IMG/VR virus record: IMGVR_UViG_3300042868_008548
Location: 1-21,193 of that record
Source of the DNA: a virus
Length of the DNA: 21,193 nt
Direction: 5' to 3' (one strand)
The notes beneath the pieces were generated by a model that was given only the letters and a program-made list of their open reading frames with translations, made no database searches and had not been told where the DNA came from. The translations under genes were made by a program, and so were the position numbers. The number at the start of each line of letters is the position of its first letter. Within the stretch, counting starts at the first letter, position 1. Positions 4,467 to 20,094 of the stretch are shown here, piece after piece.

Positions 4467-5312
4467 ATGACACTGATACCAAAAATAAAGTACCTAACCA
4501 ACAAAGACCTACTAAAAGAGATCCATCGCAGCAAAAACACATACTGTACATACACAGACAAGGCCTACAGCGATTATGATCTAATCGTAAGCAGTCTAGA
4601 AAAACTCAACATCAGAACCATCGCAGAAGCCAAAAGAAACCGTGCATCAAGAATGAGCAAGATTGCACACGAAGCTGGAATGATCGCAGCCGGTAAAAAA
4701 TTACCTGCCAAAGAATTTGAAGTAGACTATAAAAAAATTACCAAAGAAGAGCTGGTGTTCCGTATCATGACTTTTGAACATATACCGCTGGCTCCGGGTC
4801 GTAAAAAGACACTAAAAAATACTGCTGACAGTCATGACAAGGTAAACTTTCCTCCGTTCCAACATTGGAAGTTTGATGACAAAGGCAACCTAATATGTGT
4901 AGGAAAAAGCCATTGGAAAGGTCCGCTAGACTCTGGTGAGTTCAATAAAGAACATGGACAGATGACTGATAATCTAGCTCGTATGTTTTTAAAATTATGT
5001 GAACGATATGCAACTAGAGGTAACGTTCGTGGATATACCTACAATGATGAAATGCGTGGACAGGCCATACTTCAACTAACCCAAATAGGACTACAATTTG
5101 ATGAAAGTAAATCTGACAACCCTTTTGCTTACTATACTGCTGCTGTTACTAATTCATTCGTTAGAATTATCAACATTGAAAAACGTAACCAAAATATTAG
5201 AGACGACATCCTCGAAATAAATGGTATGAATCCAAGTTGGACTCGTCAGAATAGTGGTAGTGGTCCTGCAGCTGGTCCTGTGACAATCACTACCGGCAAC
5301 GAAGAAGATTGA
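4467..5312 (+). CDS. 55: late-transcription sigma factor gp55, with a long internal extension
   Basis: This 281-residue protein begins MTLIPKIKYLTNKDLLKEI, matching the 'Y..NK.LL..I' start of T4 gp55. The sigma region 2-like core is near the C-terminus, residues about 165-250: MTDNLARMFLKLCERYATRG, DEMRGQAILQLTQIGLQFDE, NPFAYYTAAVTNSFVRIIN and IEKRNQNIRDD. gp55 binds the host RNA polymerase and recognises TATAAATA late promoters. T4 gp55 is about 185 aa; here roughly 130 extra residues (about 25-160) separate the first motif from the core and include FEHIPLAPGRKKT and VNFPPFQHWKFDDKG. The C-terminus (GPVTITTGNEED) lacks the hydrophobic clamp-binding motif that T4 gp55 uses to contact gp45. 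It is the first gene of the gp55-gp47-gp46 unit. The assignment is confident; the role of the extension is unknown. Confidence 0.85.
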   Translation: MTLIPKIKYLTNKDLLKEIHRSKNTYCTYTDKAYSDYDLIVSSLEKLNIRTIAEAKRNRASRMSKIAHEAGMIAAGKKLPAKEFEVDYKKITKEELVFRIMTFEHIPLAPGRKKTLKNTADSHDKVNFPPFQHWKFDDKGNLICVGKSHWKGPLDSGEFNKEHGQMTDNLARMFLKLCERYATRGNVRGYTYNDEMRGQAILQLTQIGLQFDESKSDNPFAYYTAAVTNSFVRIINIEKRNQNIRDDILEINGMNPSWTRQNSGSGPAAGPVTITTGNEED

Positions 5313-8800: not shown

Positions 8801-9172
8801 TTGGCTAGCGCAGGCCTAATTTCGTGCGCTCTATACCTGGTCTACGTGTCTCAGGGACGGAATTCCATGCCGCAATGGTACTCAGCAACTACCCGTTTGG
8901 ATGAAGATCACTTATAAGACCTGTGATTTTGCTGTTTGAAAAGGAATAAAAGGGCAAAAAGAAGGGAGAGAAACCCTTAGGTTATTACGTATGTTAGCGT
9001 ATGCGTAATAATCCACCGTCATATTGACTGAGCTCGTGGTATCGGATGACCGCCACTGTAATGCTTTAACGCTAGGTGTACTGTGCAACTCGCATAATGT
9101 TACATTCTTAACCCGTGTCTGGGTTAAGTGTGACTGAACAATCTGCATAATGCTAAAATGCTTCGCATTTAT
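8801..9172 (+). ncRNA. candidate structured non-coding RNA region
   Basis: The stretch 8792-9289 holds no convincing gene but many inverted repeats. From left to right: AGCGCA 8807-8812 with TGCGCT 8825-8830; AAGATCAC 8904-8911 with GTGATTTT 8923-8930; AAGGG 8962-8966 with CCCTT 8974-8978; a 12-bp stem 8982-8993 with 9000-9011 (two G-U pairs, loop TTAGCG); GTGG 9036-9039 plus CGG 9043-9045 with CCG 9050-9052 plus CCAC 9053-9056; CTTAACCC 9107-9114 with GGGTTAAG 9121-9128; and AAATGC 9156-9161 with GCATTT 9165-9170. Such density on one short stretch suggests a folded RNA. I see no tRNA T-loop, tmRNA or RNase P signature and cannot assign a class. Ends and strand are inferred from the neighbours. 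Confidence 0.4.
9076..9152 (+). repeat. two imperfect direct repeats of about 25 bases
   Basis: Copy A (9076-9099) and copy B (9128-9152) both read GTGT, then ACTG, CAA and an identical GCATAATG end, with one insertion and a few mismatches between them. They are 52 bases apart and flank the CTTAACCC/GGGTTAAG hairpin. CATAAT in each could be a -10 element, or the copies may be a duplicated part of the RNA fold. Confidence 0.45.
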
Positions 9173-9212
9173 AGTTCTTCATAACTTCAATAATGTTTTA
9201 AAAGAAGAAAAT

Positions 9213-9235
9213 GCTTTGAGCGCAAGCGAAAAAGC
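9213..9235 (+). other. hairpin with GNRA tetraloop and tandem G-A pairs
   Basis: GCTTT pairs with AAAGC, then GA faces GA (potential tandem sheared G-A pairs), then GC pairs with GC around a GCAA tetraloop. This is a recognisable stable RNA motif. It lies immediately before the terminator hairpin and may belong to the 3' end of the transcript or RNA from the gap. Confidence 0.4.
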
Positions 9236-9257
9236 AAATGAGCGTAAGCTCATTTTT
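9236..9257 (+). terminator. rho-independent terminator
   Basis: AAATGAGC and GCTCATTT form an 8-bp stem closed by a GTAA tetraloop, and the 3' arm runs into five T residues. This would end transcripts from the gp55-gp46 unit and any RNA of the gap, just before the late-promoter-like site at 9258 starts the next unit. Confidence 0.7.
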
Positions 9258-9265
9258 AATAAATA
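9258..9265 (+). promoter_or_regulatory. late-promoter-like octamer for the internal-protein cassette
   Basis: AATAAATA, one base from the T4 late consensus TATAAATA, lies directly after the terminator and 24 bases before the ATG at 9290. A ribosome site (AGGA near 9280) follows. Its position between a terminator and a structural-type operon supports a promoter role for gp55 polymerase. Confidence 0.5.
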
Positions 9266-9289: not shown

Positions 9290-10723
9290 ATGCGCATAGA
9301 GCAATTGTTAGAACAAAACAAATATAATTCACAAATAATTCTTCAAGAGTCTTGTGATGGCCTTACTAATGCGCAAAGACTTGTTGTAGAAGGCATTTAT
9401 AATGAGCTATCACCTTTATTAGAAGTAGCTCTTACTACTGATCAGATTAAAAACATATTTCAATCTGTTGAAAAGAATGCAACAGCAGCTGGCGGTAATA
9501 GAACACTGATAGGCAAGGGTGTAGACACAGCTCAACAGGTCAATGCTGCACTTAGCAAATTAGGTAAATGGCTGCAGGATACCACTCCGGTCAACGCATT
9601 TGACTCTAAGTTTGAACAATTAAAATCCAATGTAGGTAAAAAGTTTCCAGAATTAGATAAAAAACTAACTAGCATGGGTGAATGGGCCAAGACCAATCCA
9701 GGCAAGACCGCAGCAGTTATTGGTATACTCACAACACTAGCAGCTCTAGCAGGTGGTCCAGTTGGCGGTGCTATCGCGGGTCAGATACTAAAAGGTTCCG
9801 CAGAACTGCTCAAAGGTGAAAAACTTTCTACCGCTGTGGGCAAGGGTATGAAAGCTGCTGCCTACGGTTTCCTAGCTGGCAAATCTCTAGAAGCCATTGG
9901 CGATATATTCAAAAGCGGTATAGAGTTTGTGGCAAATAAAATGTATCCTGGAGTAGTTAACTCAACCATGATCCACAACAATCAAGTGTTATGGAATGTT
10001 GATCTAGCTGCGCCAGACGCTGAAAAATTAAAAGTGTTAACTGACGCTTCTTCTAAAGCAATGTTTAACAATGATCCCGATTATATAAACTTGCTGAACA
10101 AAGCTTCAAAATTTGTCGCTGACACAGTGAACAAACCAGGTTACTATGATAAACTGGTCTCTGACACTGTCGCAGCAGAAAAATTACTGTCAGCAGGCAA
10201 TGCTGCTGCCACTGCTATACAGGGCTTTGGTGCTGCGGCACAAGGTGCTGTCACTGCCCGGACCGGTGAGAAAAAAGAAAGCTATTACACACAGGCACGT
10301 CCATTAAGCGAAGGACAGGTCTATGTGTTGTTCAAGCGTGTGACAGAACAACAGGCTATCATGGAAGCAGGTATCCTAGACAAAGCTAAACAGTTGGGCG
10401 GCAAAGCACTAGGTGCAGTGGCCAAAGGTGCGGCTGCTGTGGGCAAACAGATCACAACTAATGCCACATATCCAAAATTATTCGCTGCATGGAAACTGGA
10501 AGGTTCTCCTACAGATTCAGAAGAACTAAAAAAGTTTTTAACCAACTATGGTGGTATCACTCCAGAAGTTATCAACAAAGTCTACGCAGACATGAAGATC
10601 GCAGCAGGACCCACAGCGCCTGATATTGAAGCAGTGAAGAAAATAGTCATGGGTCTGCCTACAGATCGCAAAATTAGATTGATGAAATACATACAAAAAC
10701 AACCAGCACCTGCAGCGGCTTAA
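9290..10723 (+). CDS. putative internal head (ejected) protein with a glycine-zipper membrane segment
   Basis: This 477-residue protein opens with MRIEQLLEQ, resembling T4 capsid-targeting N-termini such as MKTYQEFIAE, with an L-L-E site for gp21-type cleavage at residues 6-8 and another (L-Q-E|S) at 18-20. Residues about 136-167 are hydrophobic and Gly/Ala-rich (VIGILTTLAALAGGPVGGAI), like a membrane-inserting glycine zipper. Around residue 330 comes PLSEGQVYVLFKR, then a consensus-like I-M-E|A at 357-360. After it comes a basic Gly/Ala module (AGILDKAKQLGGKALGAVAK) and a C-terminal helical domain with AAWKLEGSPTDSEELKKFL. The two genes downstream carry related modules. I infer a protein packed in the head, processed by gp21 and delivered with DNA. 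Family unknown; it could be another virion protein. Confidence 0.55.
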   Translation: MRIEQLLEQNKYNSQIILQESCDGLTNAQRLVVEGIYNELSPLLEVALTTDQIKNIFQSVEKNATAAGGNRTLIGKGVDTAQQVNAALSKLGKWLQDTTPVNAFDSKFEQLKSNVGKKFPELDKKLTSMGEWAKTNPGKTAAVIGILTTLAALAGGPVGGAIAGQILKGSAELLKGEKLSTAVGKGMKAAAYGFLAGKSLEAIGDIFKSGIEFVANKMYPGVVNSTMIHNNQVLWNVDLAAPDAEKLKVLTDASSKAMFNNDPDYINLLNKASKFVADTVNKPGYYDKLVSDTVAAEKLLSAGNAAATAIQGFGAAAQGAVTARTGEKKESYYTQARPLSEGQVYVLFKRVTEQQAIMEAGILDKAKQLGGKALGAVAKGAAAVGKQITTNATYPKLFAAWKLEGSPTDSEELKKFLTNYGGITPEVINKVYADMKIAAGPTAPDIEAVKKIVMGLPTDRKIRLMKYIQKQPAPAAA

Positions 10724-10733
10724 GGATCCAACC

Positions 10734-11501
10734 ATGAGAATAAATGAAATACTAGTTGAATCAAAATTAGACGAAGGTCCAGTGGGATCACTGGTCAAAG
10801 CTGCAGGTCGAGGAGTAGGGAAAGCTGTAGGCGGAGTAGCCAAAGGTGTGGGCGCAGTGGCTGGAGGTATTGCGGGAATTGGATCAGCATTTAAGAAAGG
10901 ATTCTCAGCAGGTAAAAGCACTGTAGCCGGAGAACCTACCCCTGTCACACCTAAACCCACAACATCTACAGCTGGTAGCAGTACTTCAACTGCAGCCGCT
11001 GGTACCGGACAAAATGCAGCACCGGATCAAACACAGGCTAAAACAGGTAACACAGTAGGAGCACCTAGTGGTCAAGCCCCAGCAGCATCAACAACTCCCA
11101 CTGATACAAAGGCAGCACCATCTGCAGCGGCTGCACCCGCAGTTTCTGCAAAATCAACAGATGCAACAGCAGCAGCACCAGCAGCAAATCTAAAAGCAGA
11201 CACTGCTTATGCTCAAGCACAGAAAGCCATTGCAGGCATGGCACCAGAACAGAAAAAAGAATTAGTTACGATGATACAGGCTGATCCAAAGGTCAAGGCA
11301 GCATTAGTTAAACCCGCTGTACAAAAACCTGTGACAGCACCTACTGCATCCCAGGCAGTAGCAAAACCAAAAATCAAACAACCACTTAAAATCAAAGGTG
11401 CTAAACAAGCAGCACCACAACCTCAGCAACAGTTAGCAGCCAGCCTAGAACCCAAAGCTAATATGGTGGCAGAAGATTTTAGTATTTTTAGGAAGCACTA
11501 A
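10734..11501 (+). CDS. putative internal head protein, Gly-rich module plus Ala/Pro/Thr low-complexity region
   Basis: This 255-residue protein starts MRINEILVESKLDEGPVG, with two (L/I)-x-E sites (L7-V-E|S and L12-D-E|G). A basic glycine-rich module begins directly after the second (GPVGSLVKAAGRGVGKAVGG, then VAKGVGAVAGGIAG), about residues 15-57. Residues 60-150 are almost only Ala, Thr, Pro, Ser, Gln and Gly; a short helical patch (AYAQAQKAIAGMAPEQKKEL) lies around 160-180; the rest is basic, Pro/Gln/Ala-rich and ends EDFSIFRKH. No enzyme motif is visible. The start follows the previous stop by 10 bases with AAGGA upstream, and its stop shares one base with the next start (TAATG). Similarity to its neighbours suggests a shared origin and a common fate in the capsid. 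Confidence 0.55.
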   Translation: MRINEILVESKLDEGPVGSLVKAAGRGVGKAVGGVAKGVGAVAGGIAGIGSAFKKGFSAGKSTVAGEPTPVTPKPTTSTAGSSTSTAAAGTGQNAAPDQTQAKTGNTVGAPSGQAPAASTTPTDTKAAPSAAAAPAVSAKSTDATAAAPAANLKADTAYAQAQKAIAGMAPEQKKELVTMIQADPKVKAALVKPAVQKPVTAPTASQAVAKPKIKQPLKIKGAKQAAPQPQQQLAASLEPKANMVAEDFSIFRKH

Positions 11502-11968
11502 TGAAAATTCGTGATATCGTATCAGAAGCAGGTATAGTACAAGCTGTGGGCAAAGGTGTAGGCGGTCTTGCCAAAGGTGTTGGTACTGTAACAGGTGCAG
11601 CAGCCGGAGCAGCACAACTAGCACAAAAGGGATTTAAACAGGGTCAAGACACCATGGACAAGATTTTAAATCCTAAAAGATGGTTCAGCAAAGATCAAAA
11701 TAAAGATACAGCTAAGACCACTCCACACTCCACTGTATCAGAACCTTATGAAAATCGAAGAATACTTCAACAAGCAGGGCAAGGTCGTCCTCTTTATCAG
11801 CAAGATCTCGCAAATCTAAAATCATTGCACAGAGCGATTTCCAGCGGAGAAGTTCCTACCAACATAGATCAAACTTCATTATTATTGGCTTTGAAATCAG
11901 CCTATAGTGGTCAGACGTTAAACGACAATCAAAAAAAATTGCTGATGCAATTTAGCCAGCAATTTTAA
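11501..11968 (+). CDS. putative internal head protein, third member of the cassette
   Basis: This 155-residue protein starts MKIRDIVSEAGIVQ, close to the T4 capsid-targeting peptide in length and pattern, although the cleavage site reads V-S-E rather than L/I-x-E. The glycine module follows at once (GKGVGGLAKGVGTVTGAAAG, residues about 17-36), then a basic segment (KGFKQGQDTMDKILNPKRWF). A helical C-terminal part (YQQDLANLKSLHRAI, LLLALKSAYSGQTLND, KKLLMQFSQQF) follows. AGGAAG at 11490-11495 is the ribosome site. The stop (11966-11968) overlaps that of the convergent small gene at 11965. Function is inferred from its neighbours and from its N-terminus only. Confidence 0.55.
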   Translation: MKIRDIVSEAGIVQAVGKGVGGLAKGVGTVTGAAAGAAQLAQKGFKQGQDTMDKILNPKRWFSKDQNKDTAKTTPHSTVSEPYENRRILQQAGQGRPLYQQDLANLKSLHRAISSGEVPTNIDQTSLLLALKSAYSGQTLNDNQKKLLMQFSQQF

Positions 11969-17518: not shown

Positions 17519-17767
17519 ATGCTTCTAAGAGAATTCATTTATTTCAACGACAACACAAACGACTTCGCAGTTGATCGTCGCTACGACAACAGCAAAGATT
17601 CAACTGTGGTTAAAAAGAGTGATACTCGCAAAATACGCTTAACGCTACGTCAGATCAATCAATTGAGACTGCAGGCAGAAGCACACAAAGCAGAATCTCA
17701 ATCTGAGCTGGGTTTTATACAACAAATGTACGGAACCCCAATTGAACCTACAGAAGCAGCAGCGTAA
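17519..17767 (+). CDS. small conserved protein between gp20 and the core genes
   Basis: This 82-residue protein starts at ATG 17519 (MLLREFIYFNDNTNDFAVD). A longer frame to 17465 would overlap gp20 and is unlikely. It is charged and helical: KKSDTRKIRLTLRQINQLRL, then EAHKAESQSELGFIQQMYGT. A protein of this kind commonly follows gp20 in marine T4-like phages and has the position and size of T4 gene 67 (80 aa), but I see no sequence match to gp67 and leave the symbol empty. A role in the prohead core is plausible from its position. It overlaps the next gene by 26 bases. Confidence 0.7.
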   Translation: MLLREFIYFNDNTNDFAVDRRYDNSKDSTVVKKSDTRKIRLTLRQINQLRLQAEAHKAESQSELGFIQQMYGTPIEPTEAAA

Positions 17768-18530
17768 AGCCGAGAAAGCCCTAGCCAAGGCACTAAAAGC
17801 TCAAAGAAAAAATCCCGATCAGGTAATACCGGTACCCGTAGTTCAACCGCCGCCCTTGAATCTACAACCTAAACCTAGGGGTGATGTTGTCAAAAAACCT
17901 AAGAATTCTTCACCCGTGTCTTTTGTGTTAGGTAATGGACGAAGTCGATTGAATGTAGACTGTGAAAGACTGTTGACCATAGGCACAGTATATGGGTGTA
18001 ACGCCCAGTATAGAGAATTTGCACCGCACTATCTTGTAGCTGTGGATGTTAAAATGGTTAACGAAATCATAGCCGCCGGTTACCATAAACAACAGGAAGT
18101 ATGGACCAATCCTAACAAAGGTATCACTACCAAAGACAGAATTAACTTTTTTAATCCGCATAAAGGATGGAGCTCAGGACCCACAGCACTTTGGTTTGCA
18201 GCTAGTCAAGGAGCCAGTGAAATATACATACTAGGATTTGATTATCAAGGCAGTAACGGCAAATTCAACAATGTATACGCTGATACTTTTAACTATAAAA
18301 AATCAACAGATTCAGCAACTTATCACGGAAATTGGTTAAGTCAAACAGAAAAAGTAATTAAAGAATTTAGACACATTAAATTCTTTAGAGTAATAGAACC
18401 CGGAGCATTTATTCCGGACAAGTTAGGACCTAATCTAGCCAACCTAAGTCATATCAGTGTAGAGGATTTTGGAAAAAAATTTCCAGACACTATATATTCC
18501 GATCAAAATGTTCAAAAAAGTACCATTTAA
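17742..18530 (+). CDS. conserved protein with a Rossmann-like domain, possibly sugar-transferase related; function unknown
   Basis: This frame of 262 codons has no ATG near its beginning; the first plausible starts are TTG 17742, inside the preceding gene, and GTG 17916. The first 60 residues are a basic helix and a Pro-rich linker. The domain then starts with VSFVLGNGRSRLNVD, a strand plus a glycine loop, and continues GCNAQYREFAPHYLVAVD, PHKGWSSGPTALWFAASQGA and SEIYILGFDYQG. This layout recalls DUF115/MptE-like and glycosyltransferase-type Rossmann proteins, but I see no decisive catalytic motif. It lies between gp20 and the core protein genes, a position where T4 has only head genes. A late structural role, or modification of sugars on the virion or host, are both possible. 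Confidence 0.6.
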   Translation: MNLQKQQRKAEKALAKALKAQRKNPDQVIPVPVVQPPPLNLQPKPRGDVVKKPKNSSPVSFVLGNGRSRLNVDCERLLTIGTVYGCNAQYREFAPHYLVAVDVKMVNEIIAAGYHKQQEVWTNPNKGITTKDRINFFNPHKGWSSGPTALWFAASQGASEIYILGFDYQGSNGKFNNVYADTFNYKKSTDSATYHGNWLSQTEKVIKEFRHIKFFRVIEPGAFIPDKLGPNLANLSHISVEDFGKKFPDTIYSDQNVQKSTI

Positions 18531-18598: not shown

Positions 18599-19447
18599 AT
18601 GGCAGATAATAAATTATTAAGCCAGATGCTAGAGCATTTGGTCAACGAAGATTCAGCAAAAGCTGAAGAACTTTTCCACGAATACGTAGTAGCTAAGTCA
18701 CGCGAAATCTACGAAAATCTAATCGAAACAGAAATTTCTGAAGAAGAAAAAGACCACGAAGAAGACGACGAAGAAATGGACGAAGCTGCTAAAGATGAAG
18801 ATGCAGAAGACGACAAAGTTGACGAAGCTTCAGATGAAGACAAAGACGATGAAAAAATGGACGAAGAGTTCGAAGACATCGCAATTGAAGCAGATGACGA
18901 AATGGGCGGAGACGCTACAGACGACCTAGAAGCAGAACTTGGTGATGACCCAGAAGATGCAGAAGGCGAAGAATCTGAAGAAGAAATCATGCAAGACCTA
19001 GGTGATATCATCGACGAACTACAAGCTAAATTTGATGCACTGCAAGGTGAAGAAGATAAAGAAGACATGGGCGACGACATGGGCGGCGAAGAGCCAAAGA
19101 TGGACTCTTTTGAACCAGAATTAGAAACAGTACGTGAATATGTAGAAAAAGTTGCTACACCAAAGGGTGGAGACAATGGTGCTAACGCTAAATCAATCGT
19201 AGCTGGTAAAAATGATATGGGCGGTACTGCTGCTAATATCACTAACGGTGGCGAATCTAAAGGCGAAGGTACAAAAGGTGGATTATTAAATCCAGCAGCT
19301 AAAGAAGATAACGCAGGTAATATCAATGTTCCAGGTGGCAAAGCAGGATCTGCTTTTAACAAAAAAGAACCAGGACATGGCGCTGAGAAAAAAGGCGCAG
19401 CTGAACAAGCTGATAACAAGCAAAGTCTTTTCCGTGGCCGTAGATAA
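18599..19447 (+). CDS. acidic prohead core protein, gp67/gp68-like
   Basis: This 282-residue protein has a helical N-terminus (KLLSQMLEHLVNEDSAKAEE, LFHEYVVAKSREIYENLIE) resembling T4 gp67, which also begins with a short helix and continues into an Asp/Glu tract. Residues about 46-170 are overwhelmingly Asp and Glu, and the C-terminal 100 residues are Gly/Lys/Asn/Ala-rich, ending SLFRGRR. T4 gp67 (80 aa) and gp68 (141 aa) form the prohead core with gp22 and are cut by gp21; L-I-E, I-S-E and I-D-E sites are present. The order gp20-core-gp21-gp22 is as in T4. It is much longer than either T4 protein and may combine both roles. A strong AAGGAG suggests high expression, as fits a scaffold component. 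Confidence 0.7.
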   Translation: MADNKLLSQMLEHLVNEDSAKAEELFHEYVVAKSREIYENLIETEISEEEKDHEEDDEEMDEAAKDEDAEDDKVDEASDEDKDDEKMDEEFEDIAIEADDEMGGDATDDLEAELGDDPEDAEGEESEEEIMQDLGDIIDELQAKFDALQGEEDKEDMGDDMGGEEPKMDSFEPELETVREYVEKVATPKGGDNGANAKSIVAGKNDMGGTAANITNGGESKGEGTKGGLLNPAAKEDNAGNINVPGGKAGSAFNKKEPGHGAEKKGAAEQADNKQSLFRGRR

Positions 19448-19461
19448 TAGAGGAAACTTAG

Positions 19462-20094
19462 GTGAAAAGACTTACACTAGCAGAACATTTGAGTTACGAC
19501 CAGGCTAAGATCGTCTTAGAGAGCGAAGAAGGCAGCGACGGTAAAAAGTCGCTGCACTTAAACGGTATTTGCATTCAGGGCGATATTCGCAATGCAAACC
19601 AACGTGTTTATTCTTCTCAAGAAATTGGCAAGGCTGTCAAAACGCTCAACGAGCAAATCGCTGGAGGTTACTCCGTGCTAGGAGAAGTTGACCATCCTCA
19701 GGATTTACGCATCAACCTCGACCGCGTCAGTCACATGATTACAAAAATGTGGATGGACGGTCCTAACGGTTACGGAAAACTAAAACTACTACCGACACCA
19801 ATGGGTCAATTAATTGAAACCATGCTAACGTCGGGAGTAAAGTTAGGAGTTTCAAGTAGGGGCAGTGGTGAAGTTGACACAGGCGGCAACGTACAAGGTT
19901 TTGAAATTATCACAGTGGATGTTGTAGCACAACCCAGCGCCCCGGGAGCTTATCCAACACCAGTTTATGAACATCTAATGAATAACACAGGCGGTTATCA
20001 GGCGTACAAGATAGCACAAGAAGTCCAAGGCAACCCACAGGCACAGAAATACATAGCAGAGAGCTTGAAGAGAATTATTTCGAGACTCAACTAA
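19462..20094 (+). CDS. 21: prohead core protease gp21
   Basis: This 210-residue protein matches T4 gp21. It has LNGICIQGDIRNANQRVY at the front, the probable catalytic His in LGEVDHP (H78), and the probable catalytic Ser in KLGVSSRGSGEV (S131 or S132), followed by VDVVAQPSAPGAYPTPVY. It matures the prohead by cutting scaffold, core and internal proteins after (L/I)-x-E. T4 gp21 is 212 aa, so it is full length. The start is GTG 19462, with AGAGGA upstream, 14 bases after the core gene; no ATG fits. It ends 13 bases before gp22. Very confident. Confidence 0.93.
   Translation: MKRLTLAEHLSYDQAKIVLESEEGSDGKKSLHLNGICIQGDIRNANQRVYSSQEIGKAVKTLNEQIAGGYSVLGEVDHPQDLRINLDRVSHMITKMWMDGPNGYGKLKLLPTPMGQLIETMLTSGVKLGVSSRGSGEVDTGGNVQGFEIITVDVVAQPSAPGAYPTPVYEHLMNNTGGYQAYKIAQEVQGNPQAQKYIAESLKRIISRLN

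Follow-up and report, generated by a model that had tools for sequence, protein, structure and literature searches.

In bacteriophage T4, capsid-targeting sequences (CTS) comprise 10–19 residues, the prohead protease gp21 cleaves after L/I-x-E, and the internal proteins (IPs) are diverse except for the CTS (PMC9026906; PMC3012670). The proteins processed by gp21 include gp24, IPII and IPIII (PMC9026906), and gp2 is thought to bind the DNA ends in the head (PMC3012670).

Here, we analysed a cassette of three genes, P1, P2 and P3, in a viral record of 21,193 bases (hereafter, the window, that is, the whole stretch of DNA that was analysed) from an uncultured T4-like phage. The three products are probably internal head proteins of the T4 type, tagged with a CTS, produced late, processed by gp21 and ejected with the genome.

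Gene layout and relatives of the cassette

The initial annotation described three consecutive genes with targeting-like N-termini (P1, MRIEQLLEQ; P2, MRINEILVES; P3, MKIRDIVSEA), each with a Glu step to Ala or Gly (P1 E359↓A360, P2 E14↓G15 and P3 E9↓A10, with the arrow at the predicted cut), as well as a gp21 gene in the same window. The open reading frames (ORFs), the peptides and the positions of the steps are exactly as claimed, and the protease gene was identified by a Pfam match. The genes concerned are the following.

9290–10723, + strand: P1, 477 aa, with a CTS-like N-terminus, a helical core with a hydrophobic Gly-rich hairpin (residues ~137–215), and a C-terminal helical domain
10734–11501, + strand: P2, 255 aa, with a CTS, a glycine-zipper module, an Ala/Pro/Thr-rich linker, a helical module and a C-terminal tail
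11501–11968, + strand: P3, 155 aa, with the CTS MKIRDIVSE↓, a glycine module and a helical C-terminus
18599–19447, + strand: gp68-type prohead core protein, assigned by its position between portal and gp21, with an SLFRGRR tail
19462–20094, + strand: gp21-type prohead protease (Pfam S77, E 2.7e-26)

The spacing of the cassette is operon-like, with a gap of 10 bases between P1 and P2 and an overlap of 1 base between P2 and P3. It is flanked by segE on one side and by a minus-strand gp26-like gene on the other, a place that is kept in ~23 related metagenomic contigs. Within this interval, P2 is the constant member, present in all contigs, P3 is usually present and P1 often; P1 is absent from L029, L048, L051, L062, L064 and L085, in which the interval is covered. 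Relatives of P1 came from metagenomic contigs found in IMG/VR scans, and a gp21 scan added 80 further loci.

No match to P1, to a distant P1 homolog or to the C-terminal domain was found by tblastn against 50,697 phage records. Searches of Pfam, PHROG and NCBIfam yielded no usable family for the mature parts of P1–P3, and homology of these parts to the T4 IPI, IPII and IPIII sequence families was not found there. The matches of one P2 relative to tail-fibre families are probably due to its collagen-like repeats and were set aside. The gp21 of the window is ~53% identical to the prohead protease of Salicola phage SCTP-2, and the nearest proteases are those of the giant phages SCTP-2, Atu_ph07 and PA5oct, in which no similar cassette was seen between the gp46 and gp26 positions.

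Elsewhere in the window, the gp67 and gp68 positions are separated by an ORF (17742–18530, + strand) that is similar to phage proteins of a sialyltransferase-like type (phrog_30607, phrog_4603), which makes it an unusual insertion within the head gene cluster. In the distant relative L003, P1 is preceded by another protein (1167–1763; MKITQITSENIVSE↓APGGSALGNIARKVG) with the same layout of tag, site and glycine segment.

Predicted cleavage sites

One site per protein had been noted initially. Those sites stand, and P1 in fact contains four conserved sites and P2 an additional one near its C-terminus.

9290–9349, + strand: P1 propeptide, residues 1–20, ending ILQE↓S, with E20 in 9/9 relatives that span the site
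9422–9424, + strand: P1 E45, putative second gp21 site LLE↓V, kept in 9/10, with LIE↓A in relatives
10310–10312, + strand: P1 E341, putative gp21 site PLSE↓GQV, kept in 14/14
10364–10366, + strand: P1 E359, putative gp21 site IME↓AG, with the E kept in 14/14
10367–10720, + strand: P1 C-terminal fragment, residues 360–477, a basic glycine module and a helical domain
10734–10775, + strand: P2 propeptide MRINEILVESKLDE↓G, with E↓G or E↓A at the end of 20/20 propeptides
11475–11498, + strand: P2 C-terminal tail DFSIFRKH, after an MVAE↓ site, included in the S[ILVF]F[RKV] tail survey below
11501–11527, + strand: P3 propeptide MKIRDIVSE↓A, with [IV]xE↓[AGSV] in most relatives

The 20 distinct P2 propeptides are 14, 15, 17 or 20 residues long and all end in (L/V/I)-x-E↓(G/A), with L in the first position in 18, six different residues at x, E in every case and G after the cut in 19; in the P2 alignment, E14 is kept in 17/17. 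The spacer between the P2 tag and the cut thus varies in length, and the surrounding sequence changes while the cut sites stay. The P1 propeptide is likewise variable in length among relatives, and the internal site at E359 has the form [LI]xE↓[GA] in 15/15 (LNE↓GP, LEE↓GP and IDE↓GA in relatives). The P3 site, V-S-E, carries V where the T4 rule has L/I. Conservation in relatives, the lack of which the initial annotation had named as refuting its reading, holds for the P1 and P2 sites and for the P3 site in most relatives, the P3 site being lost in L053, L065 and L068.

This conservation is specific to the motif. In P2, the Glu of [LIV]xE is kept at 96%, compared with a mean of 12% for Glu outside such motifs; in P1, all [LIV]xE Glu, including three that are less well kept, average 77%, compared with 45% outside (Mann-Whitney p 0.013). 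In gp23 of the same phages, the place where the propeptide should end reads L[SA]E↓(S/A)A. The main mature parts would carry net charges of +7 and +8 (P1), +16 (P2) and +8 (P3).

Near its C-terminus, P2 has a conserved [LVIM]-x-E followed by a tail that ends in S-[ILVF]-F-[RKV]. Among 857 ORFs surveyed, drawn from the window, from five large contigs and from parts of the genomes of three named phages, 12 had an S[ILVF]F[RKV] tail, namely five P2 proteins, six gp68-type core proteins and one other. The likeness of the SIFRKH end of P2 to the SLFRGRR end of the gp68-type protein suggests a possible C-terminal docking signal.

The N-terminal targeting tag

The tag was modelled as a position matrix built from the N-termini of P2 and P3 only. 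Across 1005 ORFs, 17 reach 10 bits, several of them the training genes themselves, against 0.06 per 1005 for shuffled N-termini. When the window and its nearest relative were left out of the training, P2, P3 and P1 of the window still held the top ranks among 85 ORFs, at 24.3, 16.1 and 1.5 bits, respectively; the P1 N-terminus is thus a weaker match to the 9-mer.

In T4 (150 kb, 254 ORFs), the best six ORFs under the same matrix are gp2, gp24, cd.2, 61.1, IPIII and IPII. Three of these, gp24, IPII and IPIII, belong to the five known T4 proteins with short propeptides (hypergeometric 7e-5). Because IPI, whose propeptide is known, ranks 79th, the tag model is incomplete. For four of the five best ORFs of PA5oct, mass spectrometry had found the product in virions, compared with 93 of 499 overall (Fisher 0.005, the cut at five having been chosen after the list was seen). 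One of the five is gp333, which occupies the gp67 position, starts with MKINDIITE↓G and was detected in the virion; the gp67-position proteins of PA5oct and Atu_ph07 both have N-termini similar to the cassette tags. Searching T4-like genomes for the tag, as the initial annotation had suggested, thus recovered T4 head proteins. Together with the retention of the sites across relatives, this makes its prediction of prohead targeting and gp21 cutting well supported.

Tag-like N-termini are also found in T4 gp2 (MAIFQIINE↓S; L140 26061–26885, − strand) and 61.1 (MKTFKEFIKE↓D; L139 18966–19130, − strand). A search of the literature for the literal string MKTYQEFIAE, quoted initially as a T4 targeting peptide, gave no match.

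In one relative (L109, genome G005), three adjacent genes with tag-like N-termini lie elsewhere in the genome (12637–14452). One product contains DUF6321, one is endolysin-like (MRASEFITE↓ followed by LysM and GH19), and the third, of 81 aa, reads MKIREIFE↓TATAGATSSANIA, so that maturation would give it a gp23-like start. This trio may form another cassette, whose products, one of them a muralytic enzyme, would be packed into the head.

Glycine modules and predicted structure

10776–10934, + strand: P2 glycine module, residues 15–67; the aligned P2 modules together contain 79 GxxxG compared with 55 in shuffles (0/200), an enrichment that applies to P2 modules only and, the rows being homologous, counts as one observation and not fifteen

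Gly-Gly spacings in the P2 modules peak at 4, 7 and 11, the pattern of a single helix face. The proposal that the three proteins share related glycine modules is supported for P2 and P3 (alignment score 103, maximum 56 in 1000 composition-preserving shuffles), less strongly for P1 and P2 (59, maximum 54 in shuffles) and marginally for P1 and P3 (p=0.04). The module occurs in all P2, most P1 and ~4/16 P3. In or beside the P1 gene of relatives, a P2 profile matched the glycine module once (E 2e-4) and, in the P1 region, a helical YAQVK module several times (about 1e-6 to 1e-8). The idea of a mobile unit is supported to the limited extent of this distribution and of the P2 profile matches inside P1, which do not reach as far as mobility of an element; the modules have likely been duplicated or shuffled within the cassette.

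The P1 core includes a 19-residue stretch with a mean hydropathy of 1.75. AlphaFold2 models are helical with low confidence (pLDDT 56 for P1 and 60 for the C-terminal domain) and too weak for use; Foldseek matches were set aside. Neither a fold nor a family match points to a function for the three proteins, which counts against the main reading. No sequence or fold match to the podovirus ejection proteins (P22 gp7/16/20, T7 gp14–16) was obtained, the models compared being of low confidence.

Putative late promoter and upstream RNAs

9258–9265, + strand: late-promoter-like box AATAAATA, 25–32 bases before P1

In 12 of 13 contigs, TAAATA is present at positions −60 to −11 relative to the gene that opens the cassette, compared with 2.2% of random 50-mers, whereas the count over the whole window is not above chance. 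Upstream of P1, the T4 late promoter does not occur in its exact form, TATAAATA, the conserved form being the box above. By position and likeness, 4467–5312 appears to encode a gp55-type sigma factor; the box fits late transcription by this putative factor and is likely a late promoter.

The interval that separates segE from the cassette contains an RNA of the Rfam family RF01718, Polynucleobacter-1 (8803–8937, + strand; 93.7 bits, gathering threshold 37), which occupies the same place in L137, L135, L048, L012 and L085. These phages carry the Polynucleobacter-1 RNA family. Directly downstream lies a new structured RNA candidate of ~300 nt (~8955–9257, + strand), which is absent from Rfam and gave no match in phage records. 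In an alignment of 14 contigs, it comprises 66 pairs with 98.1% of cells paired, and 23 pairs have two-sided changes; the covariation score is 0.322, compared with 0.128 in shuffles (0/500) and ≤0.08 when slid. A terminator-like hairpin closes the candidate, immediately ahead of the late box of P1.

Proposed function and alternatives

The N-terminal 9–20 residues of P1–P3 would act as capsid-targeting sequences that dock the proteins to the prohead scaffolding core, where gp21 would cut after (L/I/V)-x-E and leave basic mature proteins beside the DNA inside the head. P1 would be divided into the core, a short linker and the C-terminal domain, P2 would lose its SIFRK tail as well, and all three would be ejected together with the genome. 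The conserved tags, sites and locus are read from the sequence; targeting and cutting of these proteins we infer from T4, and packing with DNA and delivery into the host would probably follow under the T4 rule. We assign the three to the internal head proteins because that rule consists of CTS targeting, a cut after L/I-x-E and a mature protein that is kept and ejected. As this mechanism is known from T4, P1–P3 would therefore not represent a new one, despite the lack of annotated P1 relatives and of a family. Their unusual features are the four predicted sites in P1, the signals at both ends of P2 and the glycine modules.

The glycine-zipper segments may enter the inner membrane of the host, or loosen it, and so help DNA or the proteins to cross. 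This suggestion, with which the enrichment in GxxxG is consistent, is speculative and plausible, and we put it forward tentatively; otherwise, the segments may serve in DNA condensation or host takeover. The complete scenario, in which a T4-like myovirus packs a cassette of glycine-zipper proteins into the head, gp21 removes their tags and the proteins insert in the inner membrane to form or ease genome passage, we regard as rather doubtful. To our knowledge, such a role in genome passage is known for podovirus ejection proteins and is not known for T4-like phages.

A role of P1–P3 in the scaffold or core, in which they would be cut and then expelled at maturation like gp22, gp67 and gp68, with no delivery to the host, would account for the several cut sites of P1, the gp68-like tail of P2 and the similar N-termini of the gp67-position proteins of PA5oct and Atu_ph07. 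This role is distinctly unlikely, given that the predicted cuts would leave main mature parts that are basic and, for the most part, large, in contrast to the acidic gp68-type protein, and that P1 is missing from several relatives, which would be unusual for an essential core part.

The location of the cassette beside gp26-like and tape-measure-like genes would instead fit proteins of the tail or baseplate, akin to tape measures or chaperones, in which case the N-terminal likeness would mark something else; tape measures also have glycine-rich hydrophobic segments, and the P2 relative with collagen-like stretches matches tail-fibre families. Yet the tag picks out T4 head proteins and not tail proteins, and the sites obey the rule of the prohead protease and persist as the sequences diverge, so that we consider a tail function very improbable. 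Hardly credible is a convergence of low-complexity sequences without common function: Gly/Ala-rich composition and the marginal P1/P3 similarity speak for it, whereas the equal-composition shuffle controls for modules, tag and GxxxG, and the conservation specific to the cut sites, speak against it.

If P1–P3 are internal head proteins, the capsid-targeting code of T4, which combines a short tag with an L-x-E cut, would be readable from sequence in distant uncultured phages. That a matrix trained on the cassette finds T4 head proteins opens a route to candidate lists of injected proteins for unannotated phage genomes, and three protein families without annotated relatives are singled out here together with a testable membrane hypothesis.

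Comparison with known systems

For the proposed membrane action, a precedent is the glycine-zipper translocation segment of the type VI secretion system effector Tde1, in which, as in the cassette proteins, GxxxG recurs close to the start of the mature protein (PMC10240207); no homology of Tde1 to P1–P3 is known, and any likeness in function would be an analogy. A phage parallel is SPN3US gp47, with a predicted transmembrane segment in the mature part (PMC5694885). In SPN3US and phiKZ, the ejection or inner-body proteins resemble the cassette in that many internal head proteins are cut after x-x-E and their genes are clustered, whereas the SPN3US propeptides often exceed 100 residues and the phiKZ cut motif is S/A-x-E (PMC9026906).

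The nearest known peptide to the P2 start, MRINEILVE↓S, is the T4 gp24 propeptide, MAKINELLRE↓S, although gp24 is a vertex protein of the shell, unlike the internal P1–P3. T4 IPI, IPII, IPIII and Alt share with P1–P3 a short propeptide that ends in (L/I)-x-E and a basic mature protein. Alt is also cut at its C-terminus, as predicted for P2 (PMC9026906), and the spacer between tag and cut varies in the cassette as it does between IPI (up to 19 residues) and IPII/III (10). Compared with the T4 internal proteins, homology is seen in the tag only, P1 is larger and has several cut sites, and the proteins of the window are distinguished by their glycine modules and by genes gathered in one cassette next to segE.
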